A DNA stretch of 64,000 nt. It comes from Butyricimonas faecihominis (GTDB lineage: Bacteria > Bacteroidota > Bacteroidia > Bacteroidales > Marinifilaceae). Both the position numbers and the translations under genes were made by a program. The stretch is taken from assembly GCF_033096445.1 (NCBI RefSeq), contig NZ_AP028155.1, forward strand, positions 2,175,880-2,239,879, in the 5' to 3' direction. Of this stretch, positions 17,337-25,425 are shown one piece after another. Below the pieces are notes generated by a model. It made no database searches and was not told the DNA's origin. It saw only the letters and a list, made by a program, of their open reading frames with translations. Within the stretch, counting starts at the first letter, position 1; each line of letters opens with the position of its first letter.

Positions 17337-17775
17337 AGCAAAGTATTGAGTAACAAACAATAAACTCCGATACTATACAAATCCAACTGAAAAGAAAAAG
17401 AGATCGGCTTTTATTGTTGATCATAGATTGTTATTTAAAATAGCCAATATCCGTACGGATAGTAATTTCTCCCTCCTCACTTATAGCTGTAGAGAAATTC
17501 ACAAATATCTATACTTTTGCTACCCAACCATGTATCAGCACCTCTTTACAAAATTTGAATATACCACTGATCAAGAAAGAATTTCTATCTAAAGCAGTAT
17601 CAGAGAACATATATAAATTCAAATTTGATGAAAATTTATATAAGTCTTTACCCCCAATAGATACATTCATCAAAATAAACATATTCATCAAACGGTCTAT
17701 TCCGGTAAGTATTCTACAGGAAAAATCATTTTCCAGTATCCTTACTAGCAATCCGCAAAATTTTGATAAAGAGAA

Positions 17776-18789
17776 CTATACGGCAATCCTCTCTCGAATA
17801 CTTTTTTCAACAGCAAGAAACGACTGTAATTCCGAAATAAACTCAAACTCTTCAAGTTGCTCAATGATTCTTTTCCTATCAAAAAGAAGCTGATCATACA
17901 AAATTTCATCATGTTGATGAAATTTTTTTTTCATTGGAATACTTATTGCATATGGAATGAACATAGCGTGAATTGCTAATTTAGAAAAACAGAGAAATTC
18001 TTTAAATCTCTGGGTATCATATTGCTTATAATTCCACTCTTTTCCACAAGCACATTGAGCAAGTATTATAATCATATTGGGAATTCTATCAATAAAAGGT
18101 AACCAAGCTATTATATCTAAGCCTCTTTCTTGAGTATTCGTGTTAGGAATTGAATTCAATTTGTCCAAGTTTATTCTCATATTCAATTCTTCTGCCAATT
18201 TTGAAATCTTAGTTTTAGCATTACCTTTATATAATGACTTTTTCCCAAATACTTTTATTATAGCTTTTGGCGGGAGAAAGGATTTCAGACTATAAAAAGA
18301 TAATGTCTCAAAATCGACAGCCAACTCTGAAGCAATATCCTTAAAACAATTCAAATTAGAACACAAAAGTAGTAATATATATAATTTATGCTTACTCGAT
18401 AAATGCTCTTTCAATTTAATTTGATTCTTCTTAATAATAAAAGGATACTCATCAGAACTATATAAACTTTCTCGTTCACGACAGACATTAAAAATTGAAT
18501 AAAATCTTTCTTCAATTATATCATTTTTTTCTGCTTCGAGCGAAGCTATTTCCTCCAATTTATTCTCAACATCGTCAAGTGCATCCACCTCTAATATATT
18601 AGAATCTTTTATATCTTGTAATTTATCTGAAATATCAGCAACAGTTACTTCTTCTTTTAGAAATAAAGCATTCAACTCTACAAAATCAGCATACACATGT
18701 TCTATATATTTTTGTACATTGGGAGTTTCAAGAGTAAAATCTTGAAATTGCTTTTTCAATTTTTCATTAAAATTCATCACCATCTCCAA
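17776..18789 (-). CDS. Uncharacterised terminal protein of the Dnd-like operon, possible PD-(D/E)XK-type nuclease
   Basis: This 337-residue protein has no family I can name with certainty. The first 140 residues are helical and charged, with a likely coiled coil (ILEVDALDDVENKLEEIA). Around residues 235-262 it reads GLDIIAWLPFID then IIILAQCACGKEW. The pattern of Asp, hydrophobic strand, Gln-Cys-x-x-Gly-Lys resembles the D...(E/Q)xK core of restriction-like nucleases. The remainder is helical. It overlaps the ParB-like gene by 23 bases, or 11 if translation starts at MNFNEK. This implies coupled translation and a shared task. Candidate effector; activity is inferred from weak motif similarity only. 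Confidence 0.6.
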   Translation of the reverse strand: MEMVMNFNEKLKKQFQDFTLETPNVQKYIEHVYADFVELNALFLKEEVTVADISDKLQDIKDSNILEVDALDDVENKLEEIASLEAEKNDIIEERFYSIFNVCRERESLYSSDEYPFIIKKNQIKLKEHLSSKHKLYILLLLCSNLNCFKDIASELAVDFETLSFYSLKSFLPPKAIIKVFGKKSLYKGNAKTKISKLAEELNMRINLDKLNSIPNTNTQERGLDIIAWLPFIDRIPNMIIILAQCACGKEWNYKQYDTQRFKEFLCFSKLAIHAMFIPYAISIPMKKKFHQHDEILYDQLLFDRKRIIEQLEEFEFISELQSFLAVEKSIRERIAV

Positions 18790-19873
18790 ATACTCCTTTT
18801 TTTAGTAGTTCATCTTTAGTCTGCTTTATTTTAGAAGTAAGTTTTCTAATTTCCACCAAATCAGACTCAAGATTTATATAGAAATCTGTAATTTTATGAA
18901 CTAATGCATCTGCTTGCTCCAAAGATTTTAAAGAATTTTGTATATTTGTAAAAAATACAGATTCAACATTTTCTGTAAGTTCAAATGCCCGTTCCAAGTC
19001 TTTTCCCTCTCTAAAAGCAGAACAAGCTACAGGACTCCCTAATACAGCGTTTAAACTATTTAAATCGCTACTTTTACCCTTAATCCTAGTTTTATTTTGA
19101 TCATTCTTTTCAAAAAACCAAAATATTAATTCCTTCAAATTTGCTTTATTCAGACTTTTCAAAGGTCTATCTGATGACATATCAACTTCTAGAAATGCAG
19201 CAATATGACTTCGATTCAATGAATCCACTAAATATCCTACATAAAATGTCGTATCATCTAAATCCTTTATTTTATAAAAACCTTCATCTTCTACAATTCG
19301 ATATATCTCGTAGGCAATAATGACTCTTTTCACATACTCTTTCCGACTACCTATTTTTTTAGCTAATTCACTAACAGCATTATCTATATTTTCACCTTTA
19401 AATTCATCGAAATATAACTTGTACAAATACCGCGATTTTTCAGTCAGCCCCCAAGGTTTTATTCCAGTTATGTGTCTATAGCCTAAATATCTTCGAATTT
19501 CATCCTCTGTATTAAAAATTAAACATGGAATATGAGTTGGACGATGTTGGGCAGCCTCATAAATCTCTCGAACAGAAGCCTTCTTCACTGATGCTAATTC
19601 AGGTTCATTTAAAAGCTTTATTGCGGTTAAACGTCTATTCCCCTCTAATACTTTATATTTATTCCCTTCATGAACAACTAACAATTGCTCTCCTTTAAAA
19701 AAATCATTCTCCCCTATCGCTTGCATTAATTCTAATGTCGCAGCTTCCAAAAGCATATAATCAATAATTCCTCTTTCATCCAAATTATGCTTTGATCGAG
19801 GCAGACGAGGATTTTGCGGATATAAAATTAAATCTTTGTAATATATAGTCTGATAATCAGAAGTTGTTTCCAT
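18767..19873 (-). CDS. ParB/Srx-like protein of the Dnd-like operon
   Basis: This 368-residue protein has an N-terminal ParB/sulfiredoxin-like domain. The segment YKDLILYPQNPRLPRS is the usual first strand, and VLEGNRRLTAIKLLNEP near residues 75-91 is the ParB nucleotide-binding box (EGNRR, the counterpart of DGxxR). A helical middle (about 130-220) includes an HTH-like stretch (SELAKKIGSRKEYVKRVIIA). The C-terminal 70 residues are a likely coiled coil. Related DGQxR-type folds occur in DndB and SspE, so it may regulate or execute phosphorothioate-dependent restriction. The gene lies 6 bases after the DndE-HerA gene. Confidence 0.75.
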   Translation of the reverse strand: METTSDYQTIYYKDLILYPQNPRLPRSKHNLDERGIIDYMLLEAATLELMQAIGENDFFKGEQLLVVHEGNKYKVLEGNRRLTAIKLLNEPELASVKKASVREIYEAAQHRPTHIPCLIFNTEDEIRRYLGYRHITGIKPWGLTEKSRYLYKLYFDEFKGENIDNAVSELAKKIGSRKEYVKRVIIAYEIYRIVEDEGFYKIKDLDDTTFYVGYLVDSLNRSHIAAFLEVDMSSDRPLKSLNKANLKELIFWFFEKNDQNKTRIKGKSSDLNSLNAVLGSPVACSAFREGKDLERAFELTENVESVFFTNIQNSLKSLEQADALVHKITDFYINLESDLVEIRKLTSKIKQTKDELLKKGVFGDGDEF

Positions 19874-19879
19874 AGCTAG

Positions 19880-21466
19880 TTATTTATTACGTTTCCAATA
19901 CTGTTTTATCCAAAACTTTCGAGCAACTTCAAATTCTTTTATGTTCGAAATAGCTTGCCCTTTCTCGATTTGCTCCATATTACGAGCTAAAGTTACAACA
20001 TTCTTACCAGAAAGTCCTAAAAACTTTTCCATTACTTTGGGATTCTTATCTTTTATATCAAGCAAAAAAGCGATCTCACACATGGTAGAAAAATCAAAAT
20101 CAGGTTGATTATATTCTTCTATACCTTGAGATAATAAAACAACGGCAACCCCCTTCGAACGTATTTCCCTTAAAATTTTCTCTAAAATATATTGATATTT
20201 TTTCTCTTTAAATAAAACATGAGCTTCATCAATAAGAATAACATACCTCATTGCTTTCAATGCATTGTCAACAGAAGTGTTATCCATATTCATAAATACA
20301 TTATAAATATAATTTATAATTAGAAAAAGAGAAGTAAATCTAACAGAATTAGATAAATCTCCTGATAACGAGAGATACAAATTTTTATTCAAAAAGTTAG
20401 ATTCATTTTTGGGATCATCAATAAAAATTTTATACCGACTTAATTCATCCATTATTTCTGTTAATGAATCCCTTTTATCTCCGACCAATCCATGTAGATG
20501 CTCATTAACCATACTCAAACTTGGATATGTCCCACCCTTTTGGCTAATAAAAGCTTCCTGAACAGCTTCTCTCAATTTACCTTTTTGCTTAATACCAATA
20601 TTTGAATATTTACAAATAATATCAACAAATTTATCTATACCCATATTCTTATTAACCTCATTAACATTATCTATAAATGTTAAAGGATTTACGGGAAATT
20701 GCATTTGTGGTACATCAACAAAATCTGTCTTAGTTGCTTTAAAAAAAGGTTCTCTATTTTTTATATCATCTTGCTTCAAACCTTTAAAATCAAGATAAAT
20801 AAAATTTACATGCCCATTTGACTGTTCATAAATTTGAGATAGAAATTCTAATGCAAATTCCGTTTTACCCGTTCCTGAATTTCCTGCAATTGCAATGTGA
20901 CAATTATTATATCTACTAGTATCATTTAAAGATAAATAAATGGTCTGAGGATTTTCTTCTACCGTACTTCCAACATTGATTTTAATACTTCCAGTGTAAT
21001 AAGACTTATCTATATGTTGTTGATTATTACGTACTGCATCTAAAGGAACATTCAAATCTGTCAAATAAAGCGTACCCTTTTCTATATATTCGATAAGAAA
21101 ATCAAAGAATGTATAATTGTAATTATCTTGAAATATATTATCAAGTAATTCTAAACCATGATCAATATGTAATTTAATATACCGAGGGATATTTACTTCA
21201 TCTGTTTTGTACAACCCATAATATTGAGAAATCAACGCTATATAAAAATCTCTATATTTCTCATCAAATAAAATATGATCTTTATATTCTTTACCCTTTG
21301 AATCATATAAATTAAAATCACTTGTTTGAAATTTTTTCCCTGTTTGCAAAGAATAGCCTAACGCAATTCGAGCAATCACATTTTCTTTTGTACCATACGG
21401 AAGCTTTGTTGTTAACTTTCGTACAATTTCTTGATTTTTTTCAGAAGTTTTTATATTAATCTGCAT
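19880..21466 (-). CDS. DndE-like protein fused to a HerA/FtsK-type ATPase
   Basis: This 528-residue protein looks like two domains. Residues about 1-125 resemble DndE, the small DNA-binding subunit of phosphorothioation: RIALGYSLQTG, FDEKYRDFYIALISQYYG and IPRYIKLHIDHGLELL follow the DndE pattern. Residues about 180-520 are a HerA/FtsK-like ATPase with Walker A AGNSGTGKTEFA (near 193-204), Walker B YVILIDEAHVLF (near 406) and a following VVLLSQGIEEY. DndE is normally about 110 residues and free-standing, while HerA-like proteins (DndH/DptH) belong to the restriction arm, so this fusion joins both roles. It overlaps dndD by 11 bases. Confidence 0.8.
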   Translation of the reverse strand: MQINIKTSEKNQEIVRKLTTKLPYGTKENVIARIALGYSLQTGKKFQTSDFNLYDSKGKEYKDHILFDEKYRDFYIALISQYYGLYKTDEVNIPRYIKLHIDHGLELLDNIFQDNYNYTFFDFLIEYIEKGTLYLTDLNVPLDAVRNNQQHIDKSYYTGSIKINVGSTVEENPQTIYLSLNDTSRYNNCHIAIAGNSGTGKTEFALEFLSQIYEQSNGHVNFIYLDFKGLKQDDIKNREPFFKATKTDFVDVPQMQFPVNPLTFIDNVNEVNKNMGIDKFVDIICKYSNIGIKQKGKLREAVQEAFISQKGGTYPSLSMVNEHLHGLVGDKRDSLTEIMDELSRYKIFIDDPKNESNFLNKNLYLSLSGDLSNSVRFTSLFLIINYIYNVFMNMDNTSVDNALKAMRYVILIDEAHVLFKEKKYQYILEKILREIRSKGVAVVLLSQGIEEYNQPDFDFSTMCEIAFLLDIKDKNPKVMEKFLGLSGKNVVTLARNMEQIEKGQAISNIKEFEVARKFWIKQYWKRNK

Positions 21467-23582
21467 TATATATCAAATTATACGTTGATAAAAAATCTTC
21501 AGGAGATGTTTCTACAAACTCAGAATTATCAGTACTAACATTATTTATTAAATACGCCCGACTAACATTGGGTTTCAACAAACAATATTCCCTTTCCGTT
21601 AATTCCTTGTTTATTAATGGGAAAATTACAACTTGTTTTGACACACTAGGATAAAAATATTTAATAATATTCTCCGCATGTTGTTCATCAAATTTTTGCA
21701 TCGGGCTATCAATAAACACAGGAAACTCTATTTCAGATTCATCTACTAATGAACTTAACAAAGCCGAAGCATACATTTGCCTTTCTCCCATCGACAGGGA
21801 TGCTTTATCTATAACCTTATCACGTTTATCATATAGAACAATATCAATATCATCTCCGGTGAAGTTAATATCGACCTCCACACGAGTCACAAAATTTTTC
21901 TTATGCAACAGGATATTTAAGGAATTCAACATTTTTACTTCTAAAGATTTCTTTTTTTCTTCTTTAAACAAAACTATAAAATTTTGCAATTTAGTTATCA
22001 ATTGTCTTGTTTTCTGCTCTTTTAAAGAATATGAGCTAGATTCATCTATTTTTTTTCTCAAAATCTCCTGCCGTTGACGACAAGCTTTTAATTGGTTTTG
22101 CGTCTCTCCAATCTTTAAAACAGTAGTTTCTATCTCATTCGAATATTGATTTATTCGTGAAATAAGAGCATTTTTTTTATCTCTCAAAGCCAACGTATAT
22201 TCATCTCCTGCATTTTTTTGAGCATCACGAATTTTTCTATTTATAGAATCTAATTGATTTTTATAAAATGAATATTCCGTATTTAATTGAGTAAATTTAT
22301 CTTTAAAACTATGTTTTATAGTATTAACTAACTGAACAAATTCATTAAATTGAGAACTAGAAAAATCATGTAAAACTTTAAAATTTTCAGGGATCGGAGA
22401 TTCTTCTACAAAAAAATATTTTTTTACCAATCTCTTGATCTGTTCTTCATAAAACTCTCGAATTTTAATACCATTCTTATCAAATACAATATTTGTATAT
22501 AATCGAGCATTTTCTATATCAGCTCTTATTTTATCAATTTTATCTAAAATATCTTCCTGTTTATACTTTTGTTCTAAAGCTAACTTTTCATTATTTAATT
22601 GTTCTGATACATTAGCAACAGTTTCTCCTGCTAAAGCAAAAGGTATTATATCAAGAAGCTCTTTCAACTCACTTTGTTTGTCAACAATCTTTTGTTCTAG
22701 AGACAATTGCTCTGCTTTCAAGGCATTTAGTTCTTCTAACGACATTCGATCTCCTTCTCTTATGAGTTTTCTTTGAATTTCTTCTACTTCTTTCTCGGTT
22801 ATATTTTTCTCCTCTTTTAGATCTTCTATTTGCTTATTCAAATCAGCAACATCTTCGCTATAATTTTTTATATCCGCATGAAGTTGCGTCAATTCTTTCC
22901 TTTCTTCAGGCTTTGCAGAACGACGTCTATATTCATCCTGCTTTTCTTCTAAAGTAGTTTTTAAATCCTCATATTTTTGTATGCCTAAAACCTGAGAATA
23001 TGCTCGACTCAATTGCTGCCGCTGCAAATTAGAACTAACTTCCGCTAATGATACAATCTTTTCAGCATCAAAAAAGAAAAACTTTGCAATCTCAATAGGT
23101 AAGATAAAATCACGAATAAAAATTTCCTCTCCTTTTTGATTTTCTTTCGTTAGATCTTCAATTAACTCATTAGGATACCCATCAATAAGCACCTCTACTT
23201 TATCCGATGAACTTGTTATTATATTATAAGATCTCCTAATTGTCACCTCATTACAAGTTATATCAGGAATTTTTACATCAGAAAAAGTAATCATAACAGA
23301 AAATTCAGTCTCTCCCTCTTCACGAGCTCTCCGATTTAAACTTTCCACTATATATTTAGTGTAATTACCTTTATCTCTAATTTCTTTTTCGTATAGCTCA
23401 TCCACTTTCTCCATCTGTTTACCATACAAACACCACACTAACGACATCAAAAAAGTAGTCTTACCAAATCCATTCTTACCACTGATAACAACAACATTAG
23501 CGTCATTGGACGGTAATAAAGAAATAGTATTACACCCTTTATATATTCTAAAATTATTTAATTGTATTTCTTTGATAAACAT
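21456..23582 (-). CDS. dndD: DNA phosphorothioation protein DndD (SMC-like ATPase)
   Basis: This 708-residue ATPase of the RecF/SMC type works with DndC and DndE to put sulfur into the DNA backbone, probably by opening or nicking DNA. Walker A is VISGKNGFGKTTFL (about 33-46). Two long coiled-coil arms occupy about 210-310 and 450-570. The ABC signature LSMGERQMYASALL and Walker B FPVFIDSPMQKFD lie near 600-640. IREFILPIEIAKFFFFDAEKI-like text near 160 (FFFDAEKIVSLA) is characteristic of DndD. It shares one base with the end of dndC and overlaps the next gene by 11 bases. Confidence 0.9.
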   Translation of the reverse strand: MFIKEIQLNNFRIYKGCNTISLLPSNDANVVVISGKNGFGKTTFLMSLVWCLYGKQMEKVDELYEKEIRDKGNYTKYIVESLNRRAREEGETEFSVMITFSDVKIPDITCNEVTIRRSYNIITSSSDKVEVLIDGYPNELIEDLTKENQKGEEIFIRDFILPIEIAKFFFFDAEKIVSLAEVSSNLQRQQLSRAYSQVLGIQKYEDLKTTLEEKQDEYRRRSAKPEERKELTQLHADIKNYSEDVADLNKQIEDLKEEKNITEKEVEEIQRKLIREGDRMSLEELNALKAEQLSLEQKIVDKQSELKELLDIIPFALAGETVANVSEQLNNEKLALEQKYKQEDILDKIDKIRADIENARLYTNIVFDKNGIKIREFYEEQIKRLVKKYFFVEESPIPENFKVLHDFSSSQFNEFVQLVNTIKHSFKDKFTQLNTEYSFYKNQLDSINRKIRDAQKNAGDEYTLALRDKKNALISRINQYSNEIETTVLKIGETQNQLKACRQRQEILRKKIDESSSYSLKEQKTRQLITKLQNFIVLFKEEKKKSLEVKMLNSLNILLHKKNFVTRVEVDINFTGDDIDIVLYDKRDKVIDKASLSMGERQMYASALLSSLVDESEIEFPVFIDSPMQKFDEQHAENIIKYFYPSVSKQVVIFPLINKELTEREYCLLKPNVSRAYLINNVSTDNSEFVETSPEDFLSTYNLIYNAD

Positions 23583-24937
23583 TACCCTACTTTTTTATTA
23601 ATATACTTTTCAATGACCCTTTCCATATCGTCTTTTAAACCTCTTTTCCGATTCAATAAAGCTTTATTTCTCTGTAGCCCTAAAAGTTCTCGAATCAATT
23701 CGTAATCAGACTTGTCATCAGAGCAAACTTTAGCTAATAAGTCTAATTCTCTTTGCATTTTCTGGGTATGCTTTTCCATTTCTATTTTTTTATCATAGAT
23801 ATTATTATATATTTCGGAGACAGTCCGCAAAAATTTAACATCCTCTTTATAAAGTTCATCCCTATTCCATACAATTTGAATTGCAACTAATTCTTGATTA
23901 TTTATTAATTCGATATCAGATCGCTCAAATTGAACCTCTCGTTGAGCCATAAGCAATTTTTCAAGCAACTTAATACGATATTCTGGCGTATATGTTCCTT
24001 GATTATGACCATCATTAGAAACAGCAATTTGTCCATTCCTTCGTGTCGACAATCGATTCTTGGAGAGATTACGACCATTAAATAACTCTTCTCTAAATCG
24101 CAAAAGAGGCCTTAACCACTCCTCTCCATTCGCAACCAATGCTGTTAAAGATTTATCTTCTTTAACAACAGTACAAGTCCAACAGCCAAAACGACTTTGC
24201 CCGCATGCCCCATGACTGTTATCCGTTACAATTGTAGGACATTCATAATCGTCTGCACTTGCATTCATGTAAATTTGAAATAACTTTGAATTATCTGCCC
24301 CCCAAGGGGAAGTCATCGCATTAATTATGTACCAAACCTCCTCCAACATCAAGTCCTTTATAGGAGAATAAACATACGTATTCGGATTATACGGATGTTT
24401 AGCCAACCTTTTGCCACGTAACGAATGTTTCTTTATTGATTTTGCACGATTAACACTTTCTGCACTACGAGTTCCAATAAGAATTATAGCCTCTCCATAT
24501 TCTGCTACTTGTTCTATCAAAAAACGAGACGTAGGTTTTATCTTCATCTTATCAGTACACCAACGAAAAGTATTATTAGGTACAGGATATCCCCGTCCTA
24601 TAACATTTACCCAAAAAGAATCTTCTAATCGCGGAATTGTCCTTTTCACATATATAGGCATATCTTGGCAAACCGCAGCAGTCTGTATTTTTCCTAAAAC
24701 ATTATCAACATATTTTGCTATAATTGGATTTTCAACCAAAGTGTCATTACAAACAACATACACACAACGCTGTCTCTTCTCTTCTGGAATTTTGCTTATT
24801 GCATACCACACTAACTGAAGTAAAACCGTAGAATCTTTTCCTCCACTAAAACCTATTATCCAAGGACGTAAATTATCCTCTATCAAATATTGATCAATTA
24901 ATTCTGATATTATATAATTAATTCTTTGAGAACTCAT
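23582..24937 (-). CDS. dndC: DNA phosphorothioation sulfurtransferase DndC
   Basis: This 451-residue enzyme of the PAPS-reductase/ATP-pyrophosphatase fold activates DNA and transfers sulfur. The PP-loop FSGGKDSTVLLQL is at about 30-42. The cysteines likely to hold the 4Fe-4S cluster are in HGACGQSRFGCWTC (about 243-256). The middle segment NTFRWCTDKMKIKP is typical of DndC/SspD. It is the first gene of the operon. No DndA-type cysteine desulfurase is adjacent, so sulfur must come from a housekeeping IscS-like enzyme elsewhere. The operon is visibly more AT-rich than its flanks, a sign of horizontal acquisition. Confidence 0.93.
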   Translation of the reverse strand: MSSQRINYIISELIDQYLIEDNLRPWIIGFSGGKDSTVLLQLVWYAISKIPEEKRQRCVYVVCNDTLVENPIIAKYVDNVLGKIQTAAVCQDMPIYVKRTIPRLEDSFWVNVIGRGYPVPNNTFRWCTDKMKIKPTSRFLIEQVAEYGEAIILIGTRSAESVNRAKSIKKHSLRGKRLAKHPYNPNTYVYSPIKDLMLEEVWYIINAMTSPWGADNSKLFQIYMNASADDYECPTIVTDNSHGACGQSRFGCWTCTVVKEDKSLTALVANGEEWLRPLLRFREELFNGRNLSKNRLSTRRNGQIAVSNDGHNQGTYTPEYRIKLLEKLLMAQREVQFERSDIELINNQELVAIQIVWNRDELYKEDVKFLRTVSEIYNNIYDKKIEMEKHTQKMQRELDLLAKVCSDDKSDYELIRELLGLQRNKALLNRKRGLKDDMERVIEKYINKKVG

Positions 24938-25425
24938 TTTATTCTATTATTTAAATCTCCATAAACACGAGATATATTAGCTTTTTTAATATGGCAATTC
25001 GAAAATTTATTAGATTACAAAACTACAAAAAATACAAGAACAAGCAATTAAATACCCTAAGGTATTAGTAAATTTCCATCATTGAAAAAGATTTAATCTA
25101 TATCTTCTTTATCCGATATAATTAAGTACCAAAAACAAAATATTTCCTAACATACAAATTTATAGCACAACAACAACTACCCCGTAACCAACTACAAAAC
25201 CCAACAAATCTAACCGAGAACAAGAAGAGATCTAACCGAAAAGCTACCCCTCTTTCGAAAACTCCCCAGAGCTTAAACAGAACTCAGATAACAGCGACAG
25301 GCGAATCAACGGTTTATCTCTGAATGATCAACGAAAAAGGGTACTGTTCTCTATTAGATTACAACTGCATTACACCTAATTCTGGTTTAATCAAACCGAT
25401 ATTTCATTCTCTTCGGGAAGACATT
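24938..25425. other. Upstream region of the Dnd-like operon
   Basis: This 488-base gene-free region must carry the dndC promoter. A 6-bp-arm dyad (AATACC CTAA GGTATT) lies at 25051-25066, about 115 bases upstream of dndC, and could be an operator. A minus-strand TAAATTTG (25162-25155) resembles a -7 box but has no TTG at the right distance. The part near 25140-25300 has fewer T residues and no convincing frame. Confidence 0.5.
25051..25066. promoter_or_regulatory. Small dyad upstream of dndC
   Basis: AATACC-CTAA-GGTATT is a perfect inverted repeat with a four-base centre, in the only sizeable gap upstream of the operon. It may be an operator. No DndB-type regulator is encoded in the operon, so the ParB-like protein or an outside factor would have to bind it. 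Evidence is positional only. Confidence 0.3.

Follow-up and report, generated by a model that had tools for sequence, protein, structure and literature searches.

The locus described here raises a simple question: which genes provide the restriction arm of a compact operon for phosphorothioate (PT) modification of DNA? The window analysed is the whole 64,000-nucleotide stretch of Butyricimonas faecihominis DNA (assembly GCF_033096445.1, contig NZ_AP028155.1, positions 2,175,880 to 2,239,879), the coordinates below being those of the window. On its minus strand, between positions 17776 and 24937, the list of open reading frames (ORFs) shows five tightly packed genes: dndC, dndD, a dndE-herA fusion, a gene encoding a ParB-like protein, and orf5, which encodes a nuclease candidate. 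We consider it probable that these genes constitute a PT-based restriction-modification (R-M) operon, in which the restriction arm is a portable pair made of the ParB-like protein and the orf5 nuclease. The evidence lies in which genes the operon contains, in the last two occurring as a pair in every locus scanned, in the occurrence of this pair with three kinds of modification (writer) genes, in the ParB fold of the fourth product and in the weaker resemblance of the fifth to restriction nucleases. The five genes are:

24937..23582, minus strand: dndC, 451 residues, PP-loop sulfurtransferase of DNA phosphorothioation
23582..21456, minus strand: dndD, 708 residues, coiled-coil ABC ATPase
21466..19880, minus strand: dndE-herA fusion, 528 residues, DndE joined to a HerA/FtsK-type ATPase
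19873..18767, minus strand: ParB-like gene, 368 residues, proposed nucleotide-dependent sensor or clamp
18789..17776, minus strand: orf5, 337 residues from a TTG start, putative PD-(D/E)XK-like nuclease, its N-terminal part helical

These coordinates agree with a first-pass annotation of the window, made from the letters alone, which had described a five-gene operon with members overlapping or at most 6 nt apart. Successive genes are linked by a 1-nt overlap, an 11-nt overlap, a 6-nt gap and an overlap of 11–23 nt, the last value varying with the start of orf5, for which in-frame ATG codons at 18783 and 18777 are alternatives. A scan for promoters and terminators was no richer than shuffled sequences (47 versus 45.1 and 1 versus 2.5, respectively) and was not used.

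The first two genes, which had been called clear DndC and DndD, both score above the cut-offs of their family models: DndC matches TIGR03183 with 442 bits (cut-off 290.4) and the PADLOC DndC model with 484 bits, and its translation contains an SGGKDS motif, while DndD matches TIGR03185 with 278.8 bits (cut-off 245.85). The top PADLOC model for DndD carries the name PbeC (PDLC02742, 1189 bits), in conflict with TIGR03185. This label was dropped because TIGR03185 is above its cut-off and because the translation lacks a C-x-C pair, which by that criterion makes the protein DndD rather than a CxC/PbeC type; no gene like PbeA, the HKD nuclease-SF2 helicase of PbeABCD, is present among the five genes of the operon, the only part of the genome searched for PbeA. 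The third gene is the predicted DndE-HerA fusion: residues 5–110 match PF08870 (65.3 bits, cut-off 25) and residues 153–468 match the HerA part of DndH (PADLOC, 86.6 bits). The score of the DndE part with TIGR03184 is 40.5 bits, below the cut-off of 71.85, as may be expected for a fusion. Compared with PDB sequences, the fusion matches DptH (7es4, E=1.7e-11) and DndE (7x4e, E=6e-4), and judged from these alignments the HerA part of DndH/DptH is the closest match of the fused ATPase. Such fusions were already published, as clade 3 in section 22 of PMC10853773, and the operon falls within the DndE-HerA Dnd subset as defined there, i.e., one polypeptide beside a DndD-related ATPase. The fusion was therefore rejected as a new part.

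The last two genes form a unit. In a first search within the family, orf5 was found in 4 of 56 genomes, each time behind a ParB-like gene. The main scan used one genome per species and yielded 57 pattern matches, from which 31 orf5 loci were confirmed; as its two peptide patterns came from four sequences, it favours close relatives. A ParB-like frame lies directly before orf5 on the same strand in all 31 loci, being only fragmentary in L048 (contig edge) and L050. Three loci are represented twice (L003/L041, L004/L056 and L005/L057), and L064 and L065 are one gene set from two Thauera genomes. As the first-pass annotation required of its reading, the pair recurs with DndCDE elsewhere: Dnd genes are present in 19/31 loci, 17 of them with dndC and the other two (L047 and L053, cut at the contig end) with the later dnd genes. 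The dndCDE genes are upstream of the pair and in the same direction in 18 of these 19 loci; they are convergent with it in L044, and L055 has two extra frames between dndCDE and the pair. A C5-cytosine methylase adjoins the pair in 4/31 loci (L062–L065), and L036 carries genes for a PbeC-like ATPase and for a protein resembling cysteine desulfurases, with pieces of dndC elsewhere in its genome.

The first-pass annotation had proposed to survey whether the pair accompanies the DndE-HerA fusion at all times, which is not the case. Of the 19 Dnd loci, 11 carry the fused form and 8 a plain DndE, and a dependence of the pair on the fusion was rejected on this ground. Conversely, in an independent sample of 395 genomes across the phylum, four genomes with a full-length or near-full-length DndE-HerA match (G154, G305, G139 and G338) gave no orf5 match. 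The fusion of G154 is followed by a DpdB/DndB-like gene and then an unknown gene. In L066 (7975–9994), a DpdB/DndB-like gene and an unknown 319-residue protein replace the pair after DndC, DndD and DndE-HerA, and are perhaps another arm.

The ParB-like protein gave no Pfam match and scored below threshold with the NCBIfam ParB model (13.8 bits, cut-off 58.45). Its AlphaFold2 model (predicted local distance difference test (pLDDT) 88.0, predicted template modelling score (pTM) 0.72) retrieved ParB and Noc CTPases in Foldseek (probability 1.00, 18 hits at E≤1e-3), the nearest being the ParB-CDP structures 7bnk and 6sdk (probability 1.00, E about 1e-5); sulfiredoxin 6ky4 was matched with a probability of 1.00 and E=0.02, and a profile match to ParB 4umk was obtained at E=8e-4. 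The fourth gene product is thus predicted, from its model, to have the ParB N-domain fold of the ParB/sulfiredoxin superfamily. An EGNRR motif, also seen in the family alignment, is located at residues 77–81, and we propose that the protein may act as a nucleotide-dependent sensor or clamp. It matches phrog_3694 over nearly its full length (278 bits), and its N-terminal ∼150 residues match the PADLOC PD-Lambda-5_A models (77.5 bits). The commonest Pfam family in the alignment of ParB-like proteins is GmrSD_N, with weak sub-threshold matches in 12/29 members (best E=2.7e-4).

No significant match to orf5 was found in Pfam, NCBIfam or PADLOC, where only a weak HTH_5 match was seen, and the Pfam search of the 31 members of its alignment gave scattered weak matches, most commonly to CapR (4 members). 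The protein matches phrog_3984 over nearly its full length (119 bits); both this family and phrog_3694 are listed in PHROG as being of unknown function. The top Foldseek hits of its AlphaFold2 model (pLDDT 86.5, pTM 0.87) are FokI (E=5e-3, probability 0.60) and MspJI (E=7e-3, probability 0.99), PspGI being ranked lower (E=0.18, probability 0.11); nothing was found among the BFVD viral models and nothing convincing in a sequence search of the PDB. Residues D225, D234, Q245, R305 and R307 are invariant in two alignments (31/31 rows of A3 and 20/20 rows of A5). An acidic residue (E or D) occupies position 221, E161 is conserved in 31/31 rows of A3 and 19/20 of A5, and K255 in 27/31 and 19/20 rows, respectively, the residue two positions after Q245 not being a lysine. 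The catalytic set of MspJI is D-Q-K. From its model and conserved residues, orf5 is likely a PD-(D/E)XK-like nuclease in which the lysine is displaced. In two loci, a gene with an Mrr_cat restriction domain comes right after orf5 (L035, 11018–11836; L039, 10983–11864), and in L035 a HARE-HTH domain is present too.

We then considered how far the pair extends beyond Dnd systems. The first-pass annotation had viewed it in a Dnd setting only; the pair is also found far outside Dnd, beside cytosine and adenine methylases. C5 methylases (PF00145) are located next to it in L062, L063, L064, L127, L128, L131 and L075, and D12 adenine methylases (PF02086) in L129, L133 and L134, the distant copies beside C5-cytosine methylases coming from Verrucomicrobiota, Thauera and P2-like phages. 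For L132, L077 and L078, whose neighbours were not scanned with Pfam, no writer was recognised. In the phylum sample, the orf5 profile matched 10 genomes, and DndC was over its cut-off in 10. The neighbours of these orf5 copies are Dnd genes in G000, a C5 methylase in G109, G356 and G330 and a D12 adenine methylase in G193, G222 and G262; none was recognised in G270, the G077 copy is at a contig edge and that of G313 is a broken fragment. Across the phylum, members of the wider orf5 family thus have methylase neighbours more often than Dnd neighbours. In L129 (5472–9907), the D12 methylase and the pair face a full-length PD-Lambda-5_A homologue (566 bits) and an HNH gene, so that two ParB-domain defence genes stand back to back.

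The pair is carried by phages as well. A tblastn search with orf5 covered 50,697 phage and 72,556 plasmid records and matched ten of the former and one of the latter; three of the ten phage records were inspected, two of which are annotated P2-like phages, Wphi and vB_EcoM-12474II. Both encode a ParB-like protein, an orf5-like protein and a convergent cytosine methylase, which in Wphi are gp98, gp96 and mth (phrog_3694, phrog_3984 and a C5 methylase, respectively). Of 5426 E. coli genomes, 103 carry 80% or more of the Wphi trio, and 36 further ones match at 90–95% identity; among the 12 matches listed of this total of 139, the three from the latter group, with partial cover, match the methylase only. 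The one match inspected (L126) has a diverged ParB-like and orf5-like pair, and its trio is located between the replication endonuclease and portal genes, a place described as a P2 defence hotspot (PMC9519451). The trio of P2-like phages and prophages of E. coli spans positions 96–3266 in L075, 204–3240 in L076 and 1869–4938 in L126, and looks like an undescribed phage-borne R-M system. On a faecal phage contig (L077, 3818–8657), two divergent ParB-orf5 pairs face each other.

The history of the pair was addressed with one tree built on the concatenated alignments of both proteins. This tree has 42 rows, is unrooted, includes several outside rows on long branches, and omits repeat loci, pieces of the window (L006 and L084), L048, L065, L126 and fragments. 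Its 20 Dnd-linked and 11 methylase-linked rows are parted by one change, the Dnd clade comprising 27 rows with a support of 100/100; this count includes seven writer-less rows that were assigned to the clade after inspecting an earlier tree. Because the C5-linked rows fall in several places outside this single Dnd clade, the simplest reading of the sequences is that the pair was recruited from methylase systems to Dnd. Within the clade, DndE switched between the fused and plain states in four changes. A DndC tree (LG+G4, 24 rows) combines 18 systems that have the pair with 6 that lack it; the two kinds are mixed, with 6 changes, no fewer than in shuffles. In this tree, L039, which carries ParB-orf5 after dndE, is sister to L070, which carries dndF, dndG and dndH after dndE (support 99/99): in these close relatives, two different arms take the same operon slot.

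The immediate surroundings of the operon bear on how it reached this host. The features concerned are:

17364..25201, no strand: inserted block of ∼7.9 kb, the operon being the sole gene content recognised
17377..17405, plus strand: imperfect direct repeat of 29 bp, left copy, 24/29 identical to the right copy
25204..25232, plus strand: right copy of the repeat, at the other edge of the insert

In the congener G007, 43 bp separate the counterpart of the sequence left of 17321 (3.6 kb at 83.5% identity) from that of the sequence right of 25203; in G009, the gap is 11 bp, between a short match of 64 bp on the left, up to 17363, and the right-hand match at 25202. Four of the five congeners were inspected at the site; the other two, G006 and G008, matched on the right side only and are uninformative. 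No orf5 was found in any of the five congeners searched. The GC content of the insert is 0.302, versus 0.376 in the left and 0.431 in the right flank, and neither an integrase nor a tRNA gene was seen there. The horizontal spread previously suggested for the operon is therefore supported, the site being empty in two congeners.

We also asked what the rest of the host genome, a single contig of 4.85 Mb, could contribute, using model searches genome-wide. DndB (PF14072) was not found, the DndH model matches the dndE-herA gene itself and no separate DndH, and the DndF model PDLC02673 is silent. The latter is silent in 14/14 control genomes, yet scores the L070 DndF at 405 bits. A dependence of the operon on DndFGH copies located elsewhere in the genome was rejected, as the searches turned up neither DndF nor a separate DndH; DndG was not searched. 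The dndA gene is missing from the operon, and the genome has 10 matches to class-V aminotransferases, the family that includes cysteine desulfurases, 8 of them over the cut-off.

On these grounds the idea that modification and a candidate restriction arm are packed into five genes, the operon ending in a ParB-like gene and that of a nuclease candidate, is supported, and a working scheme can be drawn from Dnd biochemistry and the gene content. DndC, DndD and the DndE part would introduce PT marks into host DNA, the sulfur being supplied by a cysteine desulfurase encoded elsewhere in the genome, and the HerA part would probably move or hold DNA for a scanning complex. The ParB-like protein would bind DNA in a nucleotide-dependent manner and report the presence or absence of the self mark, and orf5 would cut or nick DNA that does not carry it. 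A bolder extension, which we advance tentatively and hold to be possible rather than probable, is that the pair is a writer-independent cassette: one homologous arm would serve backbone sulfur, 5-methylcytosine and N6-methyladenine marks. If one pair family indeed serves all three, the marks may share an effect on loading or sliding. The arm would then have no dedicated mark pocket and would read a property common to all marks, for example the blocked loading or sliding of a ParB-type, nucleotide-dependent DNA clamp, unblocked clamps firing the nuclease. With the P2-like copies of E. coli, whether an arm reads the mark itself or the effect of the mark on DNA loading becomes testable.

Several observations weigh against an R-M operon in which the pair is the restriction arm. 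No writer was seen in 7/31 loci (L037, L038, L040, L041, L046, L048 and L050), although in L038, L046 and L048 the stretch ends close to the pair; DndC was not found in the genomes, which are unfinished, of six of these seven loci, and was found in that of L048. Among the 10 phylum genomes with orf5, only G000 and G270 have DndC over its cut-off, in G270 on a different contig. The Foldseek hits of orf5 include none below E=1e-3, with a query TM-score (TMq) of at most 0.30 and a poor root-mean-square deviation, and the lysine of its PD-(D/E)XK-like motif is displaced. The host genome has three GmrSD_N genes: one lies ∼8 kb ahead of the window, and the other two are direct neighbours at another place, one of them also with GmrSD_C. 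All three could also restrict, and they weigh against the five genes being the only restriction arm. The refuting condition set by the first-pass annotation, a full DndFGH elsewhere in the genome that suffices for restriction, is answered in part: DndB, DndF and a separate DndH were searched for and not found, but these GmrSD_N genes are present. Just before the window (L137, 5270–11944), the GmrSD_N protein (581 residues) adjoins a 1603-residue protein. Finally, DndFGH genes are present beside the pair in 2/31 loci (L054 and L055), and Pbe-like genes near it in L039, L044 and L058, so that the pair may be an additional arm. The suggestion that the pair replaces the usual arm therefore holds for the slot shared by L039 and L070 but not for L054 and L055: arms appear to have been stacked as well as swapped. 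The L054 (4982–20440) and L055 (3123–19409) stretches consist of DndCDE, the ParB-like gene, orf5 and a convergent, complete DndFGH operon.

Other functions of the pair can be envisaged. It could be a type IV-like or SspE-like effector, silent in the absence of marks and activated by PT or methyl marks, or attacking foreign ones: GmrSD, SspE and DndI all join a ParB-superfamily domain to a nuclease, SspE being PT-activated (PMC11662687), GmrSD_N matches, weak as they are, occur in 12 of the 29 ParB-like sequences aligned, and the writer-less copies (L037, L040 and others) would suit a type IV enzyme. However, most copies adjoin writer genes, unmarked DNA is what DndI, likewise a Dnd partner of the ParB superfamily, cuts (PMC11662687), and the C-terminal nuclease is HNH in GmrSD, SspE and DndI but PD-(D/E)XK-like here; we regard this explanation as rather unlikely. 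An ordinary self/non-self discrimination by the pair also accounts for its recurrence with several writers at least as well as does a suicide (abortive) module, in which damage to the writer or phage entry would free a toxic nuclease. Suicide roles were proposed for stand-alone nucleases near Dnd (section 17 of PMC10853773), and the pairs lying beside an intact DndFGH in L054 and L055 would then be a backup, but in 18/19 Dnd loci the pair overlaps within the operon rather than sitting at its edge, and an abortive role appears unlikely to us.

The ParB-like protein might, alternatively, be a DndB-like regulator of dnd, with orf5 as a DNA-binding co-factor and other genes performing restriction. 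DndB is itself a ParB-superfamily protein and a proposed regulator (PMC10853773), orf5 has its weak HTH_5 match, and the GmrSD_N genes of the host, one with GmrSD_C, could supply the restriction activity. This would leave unexplained why L039 has a DGQHR/DpdB-type protein, of the DndB kind, alongside the pair (PADLOC DpdB, 61.7 bits), and why the pair recurs with unrelated methylases and at a phage defence hotspot, which is no place for a dnd regulator; we judge this possibility to be quite improbable. Hence a PT-based R-M operon with a ParB-nuclease restriction arm is the reading that we retain.

How does this operon compare with known systems? In the titles and abstracts searched, figures, supplements and subscription papers lying outside this scope, the pair is undescribed with Dnd or with methylases, and as far as searched a ParB and nuclease arm of a PT-based R-M operon is undescribed too. 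The DndABCDE-DndFGH systems share the DndCDE writer, but in the host genome neither DndB, DndF nor a separate DndH was found, DndG being outside the search. TdpABC has a PT writer and a restriction arm made up of a HerA-like ATPase and a nuclease, and is not known to include DndD or DndE. The Dnd systems with a DndE-HerA/FtsK fusion resemble the first three genes in having a DndH-related domain beside a DndD-type ATPase; the available text portions of PMC10853773 name no ParB-like protein and orf5-type nuclease as their partners. PD-lambda-5, a compact prophage version of an RM+Abi (restriction-modification and abortive infection) system (PMC9519451), matches only the N-terminal part of the longer ParB-like protein and has no orf5 match. 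By analogy, the nearest worked-out parallel to the pair is DndI. The IscS-DndBCDE-DndI (PMC11662687) and SspABCD-SspE systems likewise couple a PT writer to a ParB-superfamily NTPase with a nuclease, and DndI is a DUF262-HNH protein in which PT stimulates the ATPase so that self-DNA is left alone (PMC11662687). In DndI and SspE, a ParB-type DUF262 domain and an HNH nuclease form one protein, whereas the operon has an EGNRR-type ParB and a PD-(D/E)XK-like nuclease in two genes; the signature of SspE, DndI and GmrSD, a DUF262 (GmrSD_N) domain fused to a DUF1524 HNH domain, gave no Pfam match in genes 4 and 5. The Wphi trio has a homologous pair beside a modification enzyme, but there the writer is a cytosine methylase and the carrier a phage; the comparison proposes a function for two PHROG families and for unannotated P2 prophage genes. 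DndFGH, SspE, DndI, SspFGH and others are known as PT restriction arms; here, one arm spans three writer chemistries.

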